This document shows, piece by piece, positions 3,605-56,259 of a DNA stretch of 64,000 nucleotides; the first letter of the stretch is position 1; every line of letters starts with the position of its first letter. Position numbers and translations under genes: made by a program. The notes below the pieces were generated by a model. The model saw only the letters and a list, made by a program, of their open reading frames with translations. It did no database searches and was not told the DNA's origin. The stretch is from Prevotella sp. (GTDB taxonomy: Bacteria > Bacteroidota > Bacteroidia > Bacteroidales > Bacteroidaceae), in assembly GCA_017449495.1 (NCBI GenBank), contig JAFTFO010000039.1:26344-90343 (forward strand). The letters run 5' to 3'.

Positions 3605-3683
3605 GACTAAAGTCAGACAGGTGGCTGACTTAAGTCGGAGAGTCGGCTGACTTAAGTCGGACAAGTGGCTGACTATAGTCAGC
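3605..3683. repeat. Cluster of four GACTnnAGTC palindromes
   Basis: Four short palindromic units stand in a row: GACTAAAGTC (3605-3614), GACTTAAGTC (3627-3636), GACTTAAGTC (3649-3658) and GCTGACTATAGTCAGC (3668-3683). Spacing is about 20-22 bp. The rest of the 3494-3867 gap holds only a hairpin and no coding sequence I can support. Confidence 0.85.
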
Positions 3684-28846: not shown

Positions 28847-30049
28847 ATGATGAACGAGGCGACACGACTGTTTATCCGTCAGCATCTGCAGGATGATATC
28901 CGACAGCTGGCTCTTCGGGGGACAAAGGACCCTGAGGTGGACTTGGCGTTTGCCCTTCAGCAGATCGACGGCCATCGAAGGGCTCTGGAGAAACTGTCGA
29001 CGTGGGCGACCATAGAGGGAATCGTCTGGCCATCGCACTTGTCGATGGAACAATGTTCAAGTGAAAGGACGGCCCTTTATAAAGCAGGGGTGGCAGGATG
29101 TGGAGAGTCGTTTGTCGATCTGACGGCAGGCTTTGGCGTCGATGCGGCTTTTATTGCCCAGGGGTTCCAAAGGGCCGTTTGTGTGGAGGTACAACCAGAG
29201 TTATGCGCCATTTCATCGGCAAATTTCCAACTTCTGGGACTTCACCAGACAGAGGTGGTGAATGGTAATGGTGTGGACTATCTGCATGAGATGCCCCCAG
29301 CCGACTTGGTCTTTATCGACCCAGCCCGAAGGGATGAGCACGGGGGGCGCACTTACGGCATCGCAGACTGCACGCCGAATGTGCTTGAGATGATCGACGA
29401 GTTGCTGGCGAAAGCCCAGCGTGTGATGATTAAGCTCTCGCCGATGCTCGATTGGCGCAAGGCGGTTGCAGACTTGGGGGAGCAGAATGTTTCCGCTGTT
29501 CATATCGTGTCTGTGAATAATGAGTGCAAGGAGTTGCTCTTTGTCGTGGAGTGTGGAGCGTGGAGTGTGGAGGGAGATTACTCTGTGCATTGTGTCAACC
29601 TGTTGTCTGACGGTAGTGAGGAGCGCTTTGAGTTCGATGCTCAGGCACCATCACCGATTAAGATTCTTCACTCTCCACTCTTCACTTTTCACTTCTTATA
29701 CGAGCCCAATGCCTCCGTCATGAAAGCCGGTTGTTTCGACTTGTTAGCAGAACGCTTTGGGGTGATGCCACTCCATCGGAACAGTCATCTGTTTGTGTCA
29801 GATGCAGAGGTGGCTGATTTCCCTGGTCGTGGGTTTGTCATAGAAAGGACGACGTCGATGAACAAGCGTGAACTGAGAGACAGTCTTGCTGGAGTGACGC
29901 AGGCCAACATTGCCGTGAGGAACTTCCCGCTATCAACGGCAGATCTTCGCAAGCGACTCAAACTGTTGGACGGTGGAGACATCTATATCTTCGCCACAAC
30001 GGTAGCAAATCAGGGTCATAGGCTCTTCTTTTGCCGAAAAATCTCCTAA
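28847..30049 (+). CDS. Class I SAM-dependent methyltransferase with THUMP-like C-terminal domain
   Basis: The protein of about 400 residues has a Rossmann methyltransferase core. AGCGESFVDLTAGFGVDAAFIAQGF is motif I, CVEVQPELCAIS is the acidic motif II, NGNGVDYLHEMPPADLVFIDPARRDEHGGR is motif IV with DPAR, and RVMIKLSPMLDW follows. The C-terminal third (YEPNASVMKAGCFDLLAERFGV and LHRNSHLFVSD) is the THUMP_like domain, suggesting an RNA substrate, but none is established. Two stretches, near residues 234-244 and 273-283, are encoded by GTGGAG/CTCCAC-type repeats known from intergenic DNA and look like in-frame insertions. Starts 28847 and 28850 are adjacent ATGs. Confidence 0.88.
   Translation: MMNEATRLFIRQHLQDDIRQLALRGTKDPEVDLAFALQQIDGHRRALEKLSTWATIEGIVWPSHLSMEQCSSERTALYKAGVAGCGESFVDLTAGFGVDAAFIAQGFQRAVCVEVQPELCAISSANFQLLGLHQTEVVNGNGVDYLHEMPPADLVFIDPARRDEHGGRTYGIADCTPNVLEMIDELLAKAQRVMIKLSPMLDWRKAVADLGEQNVSAVHIVSVNNECKELLFVVECGAWSVEGDYSVHCVNLLSDGSEERFEFDAQAPSPIKILHSPLFTFHFLYEPNASVMKAGCFDLLAERFGVMPLHRNSHLFVSDAEVADFPGRGFVIERTTSMNKRELRDSLAGVTQANIAVRNFPLSTADLRKRLKLLDGGDIYIFATTVANQGHRLFFCRKIS
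29546..29697. repeat. Purine/pyrimidine repeat pair inside the methyltransferase gene
   Basis: At 29546-29574 the unit GTGGAGTGTGGAG occurs, is partly repeated and ends GGAGGG. At 29663-29697 a complementary-type run of CACTCTCCAC and TTCACTTTTCAC occurs. The two are imperfect inverted copies (about 16 of 20 positions in the best stretch). Confidence 0.5.
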
Positions 30050-30059
30050 CGATTAATAA

Positions 30060-30087
30060 TTTTCAATTATCAATTTTCAATTATCAA
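30060..30087. repeat. 14-bp tandem repeat TTTTCAATTATCAA x2
   Basis: Two exact copies (30060-30073, 30074-30087) sit in the AT-rich spacer directly upstream of the parE promoter box. Such repeats are common between genes in Bacteroidales. Confidence 0.7.
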
Positions 30088-30097
30088 TTATATTTTG

Positions 30098-41822: not shown

Positions 41823-42094
41823 CATCCCTCACGTTTTTGAGCAAGAATCCTTTATATAAAGGGGTTTCGAGAGATTCATCCCTCACATCATCCCTCACAT
41901 GATCCTTCACTTACCCCTCACATTAACACTCATGTCAACCCTCCTGTCTGCCTGTCTTTCGTAAGCGTATCCGCTTCGGGCTGCATAAGCATGATGTGAG
42001 GGATGATGTGAGAGATATGTGAGGGATAAAAAACATCCCTCACATTCGTTTTCCCCTTTGTACAAAGGCTTTTCAGAAGATTATGTGAGGGATG
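41823..42094. repeat. Cluster of CATCCCTCAC decamers in both orientations
   Basis: Forward copies CATCCCTCAC lie at 41823, 41877, 41889 and 42034. Reverse copies GTGAGGGATG or GTGAGGGATA lie at 41996, 42019 and 42085. 41823-41869 also carries the second copy of the 39828 repeat, and CCCTTTGTACAAAGG follows near 42054. The gap 41508-42211 contains no gene I can support. Confidence 0.85.
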
Positions 42095-42211
42095 GGCCGA
42101 AAATCGTGAGAAGTCTTCAAAAAAATCAAGGCTTTTAGTGGCTGGGGGGATCCTGCCTGGTTTCTGTCGTTCCGATACCTTGCATGAGTGTAAGGGATGC
42201 TTAGTACGACA

Positions 42212-42253
42212 GTAAGGGATGCCTCCTATACCCCTATAGAAGGCATCCCTTAC
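42212..42253. terminator. Nested hairpin downstream of dprA
   Basis: GTAAGGGATGCC (42212-42223) pairs with GGCATCCCTTAC (42242-42253), and inside it CTATA-CCCC-TATAG pairs again. It lies about 60 nt past the dprA stop and could end its transcript, although there is no T run. A further GTAAGGGATGC copy precedes it near 42190. Confidence 0.45.
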
Positions 42254-42258
42254 TCCTT

Positions 42259-42316
42259 TGCAAGGCATCGATGACTGTCGTGCAAGGCATCGATGACTGT
42301 CGTGCAAAGCATCGAT
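42259..42316. repeat. 22-bp tandem repeat, 2.6 copies, next to the dprA stop
   Basis: TGCAAGGCATCGATGACTGTCG occurs at 42259-42280 and 42281-42302, with a third partial copy (TGCAAAGCATCGAT) at 42303-42316 reaching the dprA stop codon. Each unit contains the palindrome CATCGATG. Confidence 0.9.
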
Positions 42317-43440
42317 TACAACAACAGATGATACATTCCCCCTGCCAATGGCTTCACCACACCCTTCATCTCTAACTGGAAGAGCAGGGCCGTGAGACGG
42401 CCGATGGGGATGCCGGTCTTGACGGTGATGATGTTGAGTTGGAGGTCGTTGGTCTGTTGGAGCAGACTGACCACCTGCTGCTCCTCTGTCGTAAGGTCAG
42501 GAAAGAGATTTCGCTCGATTCCATCGGCAAAAGCCTGCTGCCGATGGGTCTCTTCCCACCACCCCATCGCCTTCACGAAGTCCTGGGCACTGGAGATGAG
42601 TCCTGCCCCGTTGTCGCGAATCAGATTGTTGCAACCCTCGGAATAGGGCTGTCCCACATTGCCTGGAAATGCAAAGACGCTACGGGCATAACTCTGGGCA
42701 ATCTCTGCGGTGATGAGGCCTCCACCCTTAGCCGCACTCTCCACGAGAATCACGGCATCCGCCATACCTGCCACGATACGGTTGCGGCGCACGAAGTTGG
42801 GTTTGTCGGCATTCGTCTGGCTCATGAACTCCGTCAGCAGTCCACCGTGGTTCAGCATCTGTGCCGCAGTGTCACGATGGCGATAGGGATAGATCTGATC
42901 CAGTCCGTGAGCCAAGACCCCCACCGTAGGATAGCCATTGGCCAGTGCCTCCCGATGGGCACAGATATCGACACCATAGGCCAGACCGCTGACAATCAGC
43001 ACTTGCGGACAAAGCCCTCGCAACTCACTCACAAAACGGTGTATGAGATCCTGACCGTATGGCGTAGCATGACGTGTTCCCACAATACTGACGATCTTTT
43101 CCTGATTCAGGTCAGCATTGCCAGTATAATATATAATAATAGGTGCATCAGGACACTCTGTGAGCCGCTGAGGATAGTCATCATCATTCAGCGTGAGGGC
43201 CCGGATACGGTGTTCCTCCATGAATTGGAGTTCTGCCTCCGCCCTTCTCATCGCCTCGTCCCAGTCCTTCAGCGCTTCCATCAGTCGCGGCGAGGCGTCC
43301 TTGATGATATCGCCTATCTCATTCCTGTGCTCATACAACATTTGCACACTCCCTACTGCCTTATACAGTTCCAGCGCCTGCTGGTAGTTGAAGTTCGTCA
43401 GGCGCGTCAGCGCCATCGCGTAGAATATTTCCTGGTCCAT
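42316..43440 (-). CDS. dprA: DNA-processing protein DprA
   Basis: It binds incoming single-stranded DNA and loads RecA during natural transformation. The 374-residue protein has an N-terminal SAM-like/HhH segment. The Rossmann DprA core includes KIVSIVGTRHATPYGQDLIHRF, then LIVSGLAYGVDICAHREALANGYPTVGVLAHGLD, MSQTNADKPNFVRRNRIVAGMADAVILVESAAKGG and YARSVFAFPGNVG. A C-terminal winged helix follows (LQLNIITVKTGIPIGRLTALLFQLEMKGVVKPLAGGMYHL). It lies 9 nt downstream of the inverted-repeat element that separates it from the DUF2851 gene, so it is probably read through that element. Confidence 0.96.
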   Translation of the reverse strand: MDQEIFYAMALTRLTNFNYQQALELYKAVGSVQMLYEHRNEIGDIIKDASPRLMEALKDWDEAMRRAEAELQFMEEHRIRALTLNDDDYPQRLTECPDAPIIIYYTGNADLNQEKIVSIVGTRHATPYGQDLIHRFVSELRGLCPQVLIVSGLAYGVDICAHREALANGYPTVGVLAHGLDQIYPYRHRDTAAQMLNHGGLLTEFMSQTNADKPNFVRRNRIVAGMADAVILVESAAKGGGLITAEIAQSYARSVFAFPGNVGQPYSEGCNNLIRDNGAGLISSAQDFVKAMGWWEETHRQQAFADGIERNLFPDLTTEEQQVVSLLQQTNDLQLNIITVKTGIPIGRLTALLFQLEMKGVVKPLAGGMYHLLL

Positions 43441-43449
43441 ACTTTTTTT

Positions 43450-43486
43450 GTTTACAGTTTACGGTTTACAGTTTACAGATGATTAC
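43450..43486. repeat. 37-bp terminal inverted repeat, dprA side
   Basis: The arm is built from GTTTACAG/GTTTACGG octamers ending in ATGATTAC. It is the exact reverse complement of 43915-43951. The last four codons and the stop codon of the four-helix-bundle gene lie inside it. Confidence 0.95.
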
Positions 43487-43859
43487 CTTGCATGCGGGAT
43501 TTTAGTGTCGATTGCATAGAAGACAACATCTTATATATCATCACGATTTCCTCTTCTGACTGACGAAGCTGGACTTGGTCGATATACCCTAAATCATAAG
43601 AGATTTCCAGTTGGCACATAATTTCCATCAATGAACCATAGGCAATTTCTAGAAAATGGAACTGTTCTTTCGGCGAGGCTTTGGCTGTGCCTTCTGCAAT
43701 ATTAGAGGGAATAGAGATCACGGCTCTGCGCAATTGGTCACCCAATGCATAGGTCTCCGTATTGGGAAAAGTCCCAATCAATTTATAGATATCAGTCACC
43801 AACTTCTTTGATAACTGATAAACATTCAATTTACGATATGAAAAATCAAACTCTATCAT
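43473..43859 (-). CDS. Four-helix bundle protein (23S rRNA IVS-type, TIGR02436-like)
   Basis: The 128-residue protein matches the bacterial intervening-sequence protein family. YRKLNVYQLSKKLVTDIYKLIGTFPNTETYALGDQLRRAVISIPSNIAEGTAK carries the highly conserved L-x-x-Q-x-R-R-A-x-x-S-I-x-x-N-I-A-E-G block. FLEIAYGSLMEIMCQLEISYDLGYI follows, with a helical C-terminus. The fold is a pentameric basic four-helix bundle, related to the Avd accessory protein of diversity-generating retroelements. Its function is unknown, but RNA or DNA binding is likely. It is bounded by perfect inverted repeats, and its stop codon is inside one arm. Confidence 0.93.
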   Translation of the reverse strand: MIEFDFSYRKLNVYQLSKKLVTDIYKLIGTFPNTETYALGDQLRRAVISIPSNIAEGTAKASPKEQFHFLEIAYGSLMEIMCQLEISYDLGYIDQVQLRQSEEEIVMIYKMLSSMQSTLKSRMQGNHL

Positions 43860-43914
43860 AACAACTATATCTTTACTTTCAATTTTTTTCTTCTACCATT
43901 TATCGGCCTCCAGT

Positions 43915-43951
43915 GTAATCATCTGTAAACTGTAAACCGTAAACTGTAAAC
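43915..43951. repeat. 37-bp terminal inverted repeat, DUF2851 side
   Basis: It is the exact reverse complement of 43450-43486 (37 of 37). Bases immediately outside and inside the arms do not pair, so the arms are sharply bounded. Confidence 0.95.
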
Positions 43952-43960
43952 TATAAAACC

Positions 43961-45256
43961 CTACTTCCTTTTAAGATACTCGTATCCGAAGCGGCAACGA
44001 AGACAGTCCTTCTTGTCGCAATATTCTTTCTTGAGTTGGATGAGGGCCTGTGAGTCGCCTGCCGTCTGAACAGGCAGACCCACTTGCTGCCACATGCGAA
44101 TGATATGGTTGTTCTCTGCCTTCAATTGCTCTAAGAAATCGAAGGCTTGGTCACAGAGCACCTCCTTCGAGCGATGACGTCCGTAGGCAAAAAGCATAGG
44201 GATGGCGGTATTGATCATCAACAGGTTCAGTGAGCCGTATGTCAAATGTTTTTCTGTCTTCGAACTGGTAGAGCCGAATGTGTAATGTGTCTCCCAATAG
44301 GGTGTGACGTGCGACGAGAAGAGGGTCTTCAACTGCTCGATGGTCTCACATTCCACCAGTCGGCTAAGTCCTGCCTTCTGCTGATAGTAGAGGTTCGCCA
44401 GTTGTGAGATACGGATATGAGGGAAGTTCTGTGGTCGCAGTCTGAGGAATCGCCAGAGATGGAAATCTATCGGTTTCATCGAGAACTTATGAGCTAAATA
44501 GAGGTACTCGTTGCGCAACTTGGCGAAATAACCTTCGTTGAGCGCTTCTTTCTGATAATACTCGGGTATGGCTTCCAGTTCCAGTAATCCTGCCTGCCCC
44601 AAGAAAATGGCCTCTATCTGAAAGAGATCATCACGGTGGTGACTGACAGCATCGAGTGGGATGCTCTGTGCCCACAGCTCGAACACGTCACCATTGATGC
44701 CGAAGCCGTAGTTACGGGCTAAAGTTACGAAATAGGCGCCTTCCCACGAACCGCCACACAACTCTGCCCGCCGCCGGATGGCCTCTGTCTTCTGTTCCAG
44801 GCGCTCTGTCTGGAGGGCTGCCATCCAAGCGTGTACCATCAGCCGTGTCAGGTCAGGGATCACCTTGTAACAAGGTGGATAACTGTCTGTCTTCAGCAAC
44901 TCTTCGTAATGGTGCTTGACGTTGTCGGGCACATCGAGTTGCATCTGCTTGATAAACTCACCGTTGGTATTCATCACTTCAGCATCGAGAATACCAGCCA
45001 CATGAAGGATCACATTGTCATAGTTCTTGTCCTTGTCATGACCATGAAGATACCAGTCAGACGACTTGTCGTGGATCTCTACGTTTCCCACCCACAGCGT
45101 ACGGCCGATTTTCACTTTTGCATTAAAGAAGTCGGGCCCTGCATTCCTGTTATGTAGTCCAGGGTCGATGACCTCGACAGATTGTCCATCACTTGTTTGT
45201 AGCTCCCTCAGAGGAAACAACTTGTGCTTCCACACATAGTGCAATAATTGTTCCAT
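43961..45256 (-). CDS. DUF2851 family protein
   Basis: The 431-residue cytoplasmic protein of a Bacteroidetes-specific family has an N-terminal part resembling a nuclease/hydrolase-like fold (VEVIDPGLHNRNAGPDFFNAKVKIGRTLWVGNVEIHDKSSDWYLHGHDKDKNYDNVILHV). That stretch carries conserved N-x-x-x-G-P-D-F and E-I-H motifs. The rest is helical, and the tail DKKDCLRCRFGYEYLKRK has a Cys pair (CLRC). Function unknown. It has its own TACCTTTG promoter box 39 nt upstream and is followed, across the inverted-repeat element, by dprA. Confidence 0.92.
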   Translation of the reverse strand: MEQLLHYVWKHKLFPLRELQTSDGQSVEVIDPGLHNRNAGPDFFNAKVKIGRTLWVGNVEIHDKSSDWYLHGHDKDKNYDNVILHVAGILDAEVMNTNGEFIKQMQLDVPDNVKHHYEELLKTDSYPPCYKVIPDLTRLMVHAWMAALQTERLEQKTEAIRRRAELCGGSWEGAYFVTLARNYGFGINGDVFELWAQSIPLDAVSHHRDDLFQIEAIFLGQAGLLELEAIPEYYQKEALNEGYFAKLRNEYLYLAHKFSMKPIDFHLWRFLRLRPQNFPHIRISQLANLYYQQKAGLSRLVECETIEQLKTLFSSHVTPYWETHYTFGSTSSKTEKHLTYGSLNLLMINTAIPMLFAYGRHRSKEVLCDQAFDFLEQLKAENNHIIRMWQQVGLPVQTAGDSQALIQLKKEYCDKKDCLRCRFGYEYLKRK

Positions 45257-45295
45257 AATTGTTCTTCATAAAAAGTTTTAAAGTCTAACTGGGTG

Positions 45296-45303
45296 CAAAG
45301 GTA
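45296..45303 (-). promoter_or_regulatory. -7 promoter box TACCTTTG for the DUF2851 unit
   Basis: It reads TACCTTTGCA on the minus strand, 39 nt from the start codon. Confidence 0.65.
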
Positions 45304-45367
45304 ATAAATATTCTGCAAATATCATTCATTGTCAGTCACTTTTTTTGCACGGAAAGAATATTTTTCG

Positions 45368-45375
45368 TACCTTTG
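45368..45375 (+). promoter_or_regulatory. -7 promoter box TACCTTTG for the 45400 gene
   Basis: TACCTTTGTG lies 24 nt upstream of ATG 45400, divergent to the DUF2851 promoter. Confidence 0.65.
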
Positions 45376-45399
45376 TGGCCGATAATTTAAAAAAAGAAG

Positions 45400-45777
45400 A
45401 TGATGAGAAAGTTTTTGTTTCTATTTCTGATGTTATGTTGCTCCTATGAGCTGCATGCTATTGAGTTGAGTGGTAAGTATCTGTCCCAGAGCGGGGAGTT
45501 GTTGTTCGTATTCAAGGGTGATAGCCTATATATTGACATCGCTCAAAGCCAGCGCAATATCTCTGCATTCAAGCTGGTCAAGAACAAGGAAACCAAGAAG
45601 TCAACTACCTTTAATGCATTTGAGAGTTATCTGGAAAACGGTCAGGTGACTTACAGAGAAGTGCTAATCCGGGTCACCAGACAGAAGAGCAAGAAGTACC
45701 TGCTTGAGTATTTCGGCAAGGATAAGGACCGAGACTACAATTCAAACGAAAGATATAATATCAGGCCGATTGATTGA
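45400..45777 (+). CDS. Small exported protein of unknown function
   Basis: The 125-residue product has a signal peptide (MMRKFLFLFLMLCCSYELHA). The short mature domain is likely beta-rich (IELSGKYLSQSGELLFVFKGDSLYIDIAQSQRNISAF, then YREVLIRVTRQKSKKYLLEYFGKD). Its stop lies 17 nt before the dusB start, so both genes share the promoter at 45368. No family recognised. Confidence 0.75.
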   Translation: MMRKFLFLFLMLCCSYELHAIELSGKYLSQSGELLFVFKGDSLYIDIAQSQRNISAFKLVKNKETKKSTTFNAFESYLENGQVTYREVLIRVTRQKSKKYLLEYFGKDKDRDYNSNERYNIRPID

Positions 45778-56110: not shown

Positions 56111-56174
56111 GTTTGACCTCGGTCAAACAATCGTTTGACGGCCGTCAGTCAATCGTTTGACCTTGGTCAAACGA
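56111..56174. repeat. Cluster of TTTGACC/GGTCAAA palindromes
   Basis: GTTTGACC-tc-GGTCAAAC lies at 56111-56128, TTTGACGGCCGTCAGTCAA near 56134-56152 with GACGGCCGTC at its centre, and TCGTTTGACC-tt-GGTCAAACGA at 56153-56174. The remaining 55987-56259 gap shows a CTTAGGA/TCCTAAG-type fragment and no gene. Confidence 0.85.
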
Positions 56175-56259
56175 TCAAAAGGTGCCTTCTTAGGAAAAGA
56201 GTGCCCACCACAAAGGTGCCCTAACCCTCGTGTGGACACTTTCCTTTTATTGGGATAGA

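Follow-up and report, generated by a model that had tools for sequence, protein, structure and literature searches.

Inverted short-unit arrays around a four-helix-bundle gene between DUF2851 and dprA point to a little-known class of elements living in operons

Results

A four-helix-bundle gene enclosed by inverted heptamer arrays

Between DUF2851 and dprA, the window (the whole stretch of Prevotella sp. DNA that was analysed, 64,000 nt in length) carries a small gene for a four-helix-bundle (4HB) protein of the S23/IVP family, and the three genes share one common direction (Table 1). The 4HB gene lies between two inverted arms that are exact reverse complements over 37/37 nt and that continue imperfectly to a total of 53 nt each. 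From arm to arm the element measures 502 nt, with margins of 9 nt to the DUF2851 stop codon, which begins at 43961, and of 9 nt to the dprA ATG, which ends at 43440. The first-pass annotation had described exact arms and 9-nt margins around a TIGR02436-type gene, with a stop codon inside one arm, and this description was borne out to the base, the TAA of the 4HB gene falling within the first unit of the downstream arm in transcript order. Its reading of the arm unit as the octamer GTTTAC(A/G)G did not hold, as the arms are tandem arrays of the heptamer GTTTAC(A/G), present in approximately four to five copies and degenerate at the inner end. No Rfam family matched at gathering score within 42000-45500, and no defence-system family was found for the element.

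Table 1. Features of the DUF2851-dprA locus (window coordinates).
Feature	Position	Strand	Evidence
DUF2851, upstream gene	43961..45256	-	PF11013 3.2e-155
Left arm with imperfect extension	43906..43958	.	89% complementary to 43443-43495
Left arm (5' in the transcript), array of GTTTACA-type heptamers plus GATGATTAC	43915..43951	-	exact 37-nt reverse complement; period 7, 5.0 copies at 43923-43957
Leader, left arm to 4HB start codon	43860..43914	-	sequence
4HB (S23/IVP) gene, 128 aa	43473..43859	-	PF05635 1.4e-34, TIGR02436 1.6e-34, 2gsc_A 1.1e-19
Right (3') arm in transcript order, contains 4HB stop codon	43450..43486	-	period 7, 4.1 copies at 43450-43478
Right arm with imperfect extension	43443..43495	.	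89% complementary to 43906-43958
dprA, downstream gene	42316..43440	-	TIGR00732 3e-63, above cut-off

The 4HB protein scores well above the family cut-offs (118.9 versus 33.8 bits for PF05635 and 118.4 versus 24 bits for TIGR02436), and 2gsc (XCC0516) is the only solved relative at E <= 0.01. Genes of this family are common: TIGR02436 matches were present in 175 of 200 same-genus genomes, with up to 15 per genome among the matches listed, and S23/IVP matches in 153 of 198 genomes across the phylum. The protein sequence is under purifying selection, as judged from a median dN/dS of 0.06 over the 13 usable of 30 same-genus 4HB pairs.

Inverted arms accompany 4HB genes in the genus and beyond

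The genus sample was drawn from the best-scoring matches listed, with weaker 4HB genes under-represented, and comprised 113 places (33 automatic loci, three of them in the window's own genome, and 80 regions). Removal of L003, a weak match, and of L146, the same place as L002, left 111 loci with 112 gene pieces, as L144 is broken in two. An inverted arm pair scoring above 23, the 99% shuffle quantile, encloses 105 of these 112 pieces among the matches listed; for pieces with full flanks, again among the matches listed, 101/107 score above 23 and 98/107 above 26. Displaced control segments, which were shifted by 800-1000 nt at long-flank loci alone and thus represent displaced sequence rather than small genes of other families, exceeded 23 in 6/166 cases and 26 in 0/166, and it is these controls that place the window arms beyond chance.

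The arms were characterized in 103 elements, not counting the seven pieces without arms, L144_1, and L120, which duplicates L119. A period of 7-10 nt fits best in 82 of the 103 left arms and one of 14 nt in nine, and both arms share the same period in 77 of the 84 elements in which both arrays were measurable. Left arrays have medians of 4.6 units and 38 nt (n=89) and right arrays of 4.5 units and 37 nt (n=92); array length does not correlate significantly with period, while unit number falls as period rises. Many arms in the genus set are imperfect. At L182, L197, L142 and L147 a short palindrome such as GCGAGTTTCACTCGC interrupts the arrays, perhaps as a nested second repeat family.

Arms were also found outside the genus. 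Among 30 4HB loci from other genera of the phylum, 18 score above 23 and 15 above 26, the latter being this sample's own 99% shuffle value. A wider sample took the best 80 named loci, ranked by how similar their proteins are to that of the window; 79 of them had enough flank, and 64 of the 79 have arms scoring above 26: 48/58 from Bacteroidota and 16/21 from other groups, one of the latter named just 'bacterium'. The armed loci outside Bacteroidota include Desulfosoma, Verrucomicrobia, Thiobacillus, Oryzomonas, Kiritimatiellaeota and Planctomycetota, and the five without arms include Nitrospirales, Clostridia and the cyanobacterium Gloeocapsopsis. With full flanks, 56/70 loci exceed 26 as against 7/442 displaced segments, and 63/70 exceed 23 as against 33/442. 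The first-pass annotation had proposed that the family spreads as a stem-flanked element in mRNAs, with arms expected around homologous genes elsewhere; those arms are present around most of the genes in both samples, and anatomy and distribution both lend good support to the occurrence of the family at many sites as such an element. We consider the element class and its anatomy to be firm, and that the class spreads to be likely.

The elements lie in sense orientation within operons

With neighbour directions called by an ORF-length rule, 93 of the 112 genus pieces have a sense neighbour on either side (87 of the 93 armed) and none is flanked by antisense neighbours on both, such that a 4HB gene with co-directional flanks is sense in 93/93 cases. 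The remaining pieces comprise nine with a sense neighbour and a converging gene, two with an antisense upstream gene (L119 and L120) and eight without one callable side. L119 and L120, which lie 18 kb from each other on a single contig of G117, appear to be duplicates of the same 4HB gene. The bias recurs in the wider sample, where co-directional flanks are sense at 60 loci (47 armed, 13 bare) versus antisense at two, with 10/80 too short to call.

Elements are closely fitted between their neighbours, the median gap being 3 nt from the upstream stop to the left arm (n=101 armed elements) and 10 nt from the right arm to the next start (n=88 armed elements), apart from a few large outliers that perhaps reflect miscalled neighbours. 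In 66 of the 103 elements no more than 30 nt separate the left arm from the 4HB start, which leaves scant room for a promoter. At the window locus, four sigma-70-like matches were found against 1.8 +/- 1.2 expected, a count that decides little given a consensus that is not that of Bacteroidota; one match lies on the strand of the 4HB gene, but it overlaps the start codon. Placement in sense just behind a co-directional stop would allow the host transcript to carry and express the element, and hairpins inserted near core genes (at dprA, at thyA-folA and, by eye, at frdA-frdB-like and etfA-like junctions) could alter operon expression.

Array units covary with the 4HB protein

The unit itself varies widely between elements, with GTTTACA, GGAGTTA, ATAGAAGGAG, GACAAGTT, TCGTTTAG and GGTTATAA among those observed. 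Arm similarity has a median of 0.69 within one element versus 0.17 between elements, and when all 103 right arms were ranked against a left arm, the element's own came first in 59 cases and among the top three in 88. Protein identity correlates with arm similarity at different sites (rho 0.43 over 4942 pairs, 0/200 permutations), the 103 elements representing 44 site clusters. Common descent of gene and arms alone could produce such covariation too. The pattern is most economically explained by a 4HB protein that reads the arrays, in which case protein and unit would change together because each protein would recognise its own array.

Concerted evolution of the two arms was considered and is not relied on. 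Across 32 independent same-site pairs, 72 arm columns were concerted versus 42 arm-specific; close pairs reverse this, those above approximately 0.8 protein identity differing by old arm-specific rather than concerted changes, and distant pairs may be separate insertions.

Sites are variably occupied and arrays are dispersed

DUF2851 was present in 103 of 120 genomes and, among the best 30 loci, dprA adjoins it in ten relatives as judged by eye. The site is empty in eight of these ten (L065-L070, L086 and L088, by eye), holds a lone tandem array in L071, and in L072 (G103, the same as L167) holds an element with related TTTATAG-type units and a 70% identical protein. The insert is not invariant at this locus, as the empty sites of L065-L070 show; invariance in all relatives was the outcome that the first-pass annotation had named as counting against its proposal, and neither this test nor that of arms around homologous genes refuted it.

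Gene-less copies are found in the window's own genome. Inspection by eye placed GTTTAC arrays at the AMP-ligase/ffh, thyA-folA, proC/regulator gene and proA/argF junctions, in each case as an inverted pair approximately 38-103 nt apart, with a single GTTTAC array at C35:17.3k and a further pair on C46. In relatives the thyA-folA site is empty in L256, L259 and L262, where the start overlaps the stop, and is filled by a lone array in each of L257, L258, L260 and L261, with a different unit in all four (all by eye). Inspection by eye revealed no target-site duplication at either DUF2851-dprA or thyA-folA, and no mobility enzyme was identified for the element.

Derivation of the gene-less pairs by internal deletion mostly fails as an explanation, since spacers matched the 4HB element in only four of the 14 scored (equalled in 0, 1, 4 and 12 of 200 shuffles for L046, L290, L050 and L268, respectively); the other ten gave 42 to 181 of 200, and L295 was left out.

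Dispersed arrays were found in other genomes too. Three-unit GGAGTTA arrays, with overlaps counted, gave 66 matches in G173, 42 in G089, 23 in G053, 17 in G004 and 14 in G008, with none in G000 and 0 for the reversed control. Across 40 hand-chosen genomes these arrays occur in 12/20 with a 4HB gene versus 3/20 without (one-sided p 0.004), the latter being G018, G042 and G112 with 4, 2 and 17 matches. G097 has 569 such matches, a large expansion. Arrays of the GTTTAC unit were found in 33 of 200 genomes, 32 of which have a 4HB match (32/175 versus 1/25, one-sided p 0.054, among the matches listed, from which five of the 25 4HB-less genomes were inferred to be such).

G018 is the genome nearest to that of the window by DUF2851 (94%), and no 4HB match was found in it (the genome is approximately 90% complete), though GTTTAC arrays are many. 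A query with the thyA-folA locus gave 57 BLAST matches there, two of them the thyA/folA flanks and the rest at 39 distinct places. Among 40 places taken (38 of these from G018, one from G119 and one from G031), ten have an inverted pair scoring at least 38 with a short loop, nine in G018 and one in G119, and outside these ten, single arrays are visible in some, for example in L277, L293, L294 and L296. Arrays can thus persist, and may spread, without the 4HB gene.

Discussion

An intercistronic element class

Taken together, we favour, with a probability of roughly 0.6, the reading that the window element is one copy of a widespread intercistronic class in which inverted short-unit arrays surround an S23/Avd-like 4HB gene. 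Members would consist of two inverted arrays of about five units each (mostly 7-10 nt) with one 4HB gene between them, the arrays pairing in RNA to form a single long stem (here of 37 bp) that holds the gene in its loop, much like an rRNA intervening sequence (IVS). In the predicted folds of 95 of 103 elements, half or more of the left arm is paired with the right arm. The 4HB protein would most likely recognise the array of its own element and might have a part in its movement, while gene-less pairs and single arrays would be dispersed forms built from the same kind of units. We found no description of 4HB genes bounded by inverted tandem arrays in the open-licence literature. As S23/IVP genes are common yet unexplained, the link to inverted arrays offers a direct lead to their function, namely array binding, and might bring rRNA intervening sequences and intergenic heptamer repeats into one framework.

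Relationship to rRNA intervening sequences

According to the accessible part of PMC4990558, 23S rRNA IVS encode S23p and are cut by RNase III. The window element resembles them in having the same protein family inside a long-stem loop, in sporadic presence and in size, the Coxiella IVS measuring 428 nt versus 502 nt here (PMC4990558, in part). It differs in location, lying between the protein genes DUF2851 and dprA rather than in rRNA, so that as regards IVS membership the complementary, stem-forming ends are found (in the predicted fold) and the rRNA location is not. The arms differ as well, being tandem arrays of short units that vary from one element to the next, and the Coxiella ORF is described in the same source as under reductive evolution, in contrast to the purifying selection on the genes analysed here.

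The alternative that fares best is a true mRNA IVS whose main role is RNA processing, with RNase III cutting the stem, freeing the 4HB piece and splitting the operon message, as in 23S rRNA, where excision by RNase III is not followed by ligation. Beyond the shared protein family and anatomy, predicted folding speaks for it: in the minimum-energy fold of the 523-nt transcript of the window element the arms form a single 37-bp stem (z = -6.9, with 0/100 shuffles equally stable), and in 85 of 103 elements at least 22 left-arm nucleotides, summed and not necessarily in one run, are paired with the right arm. Against this, many arms are imperfect, single arrays are unable to form a stem, and the 4HB stop lies within the right arm in 28/103 elements, where translation would open the stem. 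We regard RNA processing as the main role as tentative and on balance unlikely, although excision of the element RNA by RNase III may still occur within the intercistronic class that we favour.

A possible host repeat and other intergenic arrays

Somewhat less probable is the possibility that the arrays are a host-side repeat, such as minisatellites arising at gene boundaries through slippage or another factor, with the 4HB gene a captured or tolerated passenger that plays no part in how they spread. The single arrays of four different units in the thyA-folA gap of four relatives (by eye) and the many arrays of G018, in which no 4HB gene was detected, are consistent with this explanation, as are heptamer intergenic repeats described without a 4HB link. 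The latter, the TAACTGA repeats (MacGregor 2015, PMC4679880, seen in part), likewise form intergenic heptamer arrays, mostly near start codons, and are scattered across distant groups that include five Bacteroidetes; they differ in being direct repeats (with one inverted case) of a single fixed unit, whereas the unit here is GTTTACA/G, and 'S23' does not occur in the available text of that paper. What a host repeat would not readily account for is that the arms are inverted and unit-matched around the 4HB gene, that the unit covaries with protein sequence at different sites, that GGAGTTA arrays are commoner where a 4HB gene is present, and that the protein is under purifying selection.

The BrickBuilt MITE of Porphyromonas gingivalis (Klein 2015, PMC4596501, seen in part) offers a further comparison as an intergenic Bacteroidota element that contains a minisatellite and has inverted ends. 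It is distinguished by a single 23-nt direct array with short terminal repeats resembling those of the IS5 family, by the lack of an internal transposase remnant and by a distance of 49-591 nt from coding sequences. The available text of PMC4596501 and PMC4679880 contains no link of either repeat to a 4HB gene.

Possible recognition of the array by the 4HB protein

Within the favoured class, a bolder extension would have the 4HB protein form a homopentameric ring that reads the array with one unit per subunit, protein and array being a co-evolving selfish pair that spreads by way of operons across bacterial phyla with no conventional transposase and of which the rRNA IVS is a side branch. A TRAP-type ring provides the comparison for a ring reading a tandem array. 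For XCC0516, the solved relative, a homopentameric assembly of four-helix bundles has been described (Lin et al. 2006, cited by the accessible part of PMC4990558). The unit counts (4.6 and 4.5) do not decide the pentamer reading, and a length constraint fits at least as well; we consider this extension doubtful.

A relationship to Avd of diversity-generating retroelements is suggested by a match of NF033474 to the window 4HB protein at 2.9e-5, but at 24.3 bits this lies far under the 80-bit cut-off. PF05635 is described as resembling Avd in the accessible part of PMC10053308.

Transposase-driven movement and terminators as improbable alternatives

In REPIN/RAYT systems, the repeats that make up gene-less copies also flank a gene, which encodes a cognate Y1 transposase. 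Movement of the present elements in trans by such a Y1 (TnpA_REP) enzyme would fit the scattered short inverted elements that both have in common, and PF01797 is present in 111/200 same-genus genomes, the window's own included. We nevertheless consider it improbable. The gene within the element is a PF05635 four-helix bundle rather than a Y1 gene, the arms are tandem arrays, and PF01797 is unlinked to 4HB presence (100/175 versus 11/25, p 0.28), a result on which we rejected Y1 transposase as the mover; G008 has 11 4HB matches and arrays with no PF01797 match. Least probable of all is a chance placement of ordinary intrinsic terminators or attenuators, which would also be inverted repeats between genes, on either side of a small gene, as the arms are separated by more than 400 nt, consist of AT-rich tandem arrays between co-directional genes, and are accompanied by no terminator-like site at 43300-44100 (0 versus 0.5 expected, in a scan that sees loops of 3-8 nt alone).

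An identity switch at the outer edge of the element

RUG515 (L306) encodes a 4HB protein 100% identical to that of the window. In 100-nt blocks, with gapped ones excluded, identity reaches 99-100% across the 4HB gene and 93-100% across dprA, falls to 75-93% in and around DUF2851, and stands at 76-86% in the larger matches over the 12 kb beyond DUF2851. The switch from approximately 85% to 99% is sharp and coincides with the DUF2851 stop, where the left arm has its outer edge. This pattern looks like a recent interspecies transfer with one end at the element; a chimeric assembly could also produce it. The RUG515 leader carries a 37-nt tandem duplication.

Other repeats in the window

Downstream of dprA, 12-nt-unit arrays of TCATCCCTCACA and ATGATGTGAGGG at 41876-41923 and 41991-42028 appear inverted by eye, and this pair is perhaps a gene-less relative with another unit. 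Heptamer arrays of GTGGAGT and TCTTCAC (29546-29572 and 29665-29693) are loosely inverted by eye, and an AATTATC array lies at 30058-30091. Tandem repeats of 22 nt occur at 56111-56176, 42259-42316 and 3605-3682; the unit of the first is itself palindromic (GTTTGACCTCGGTCAAAC), and the second abuts the end of dprA.
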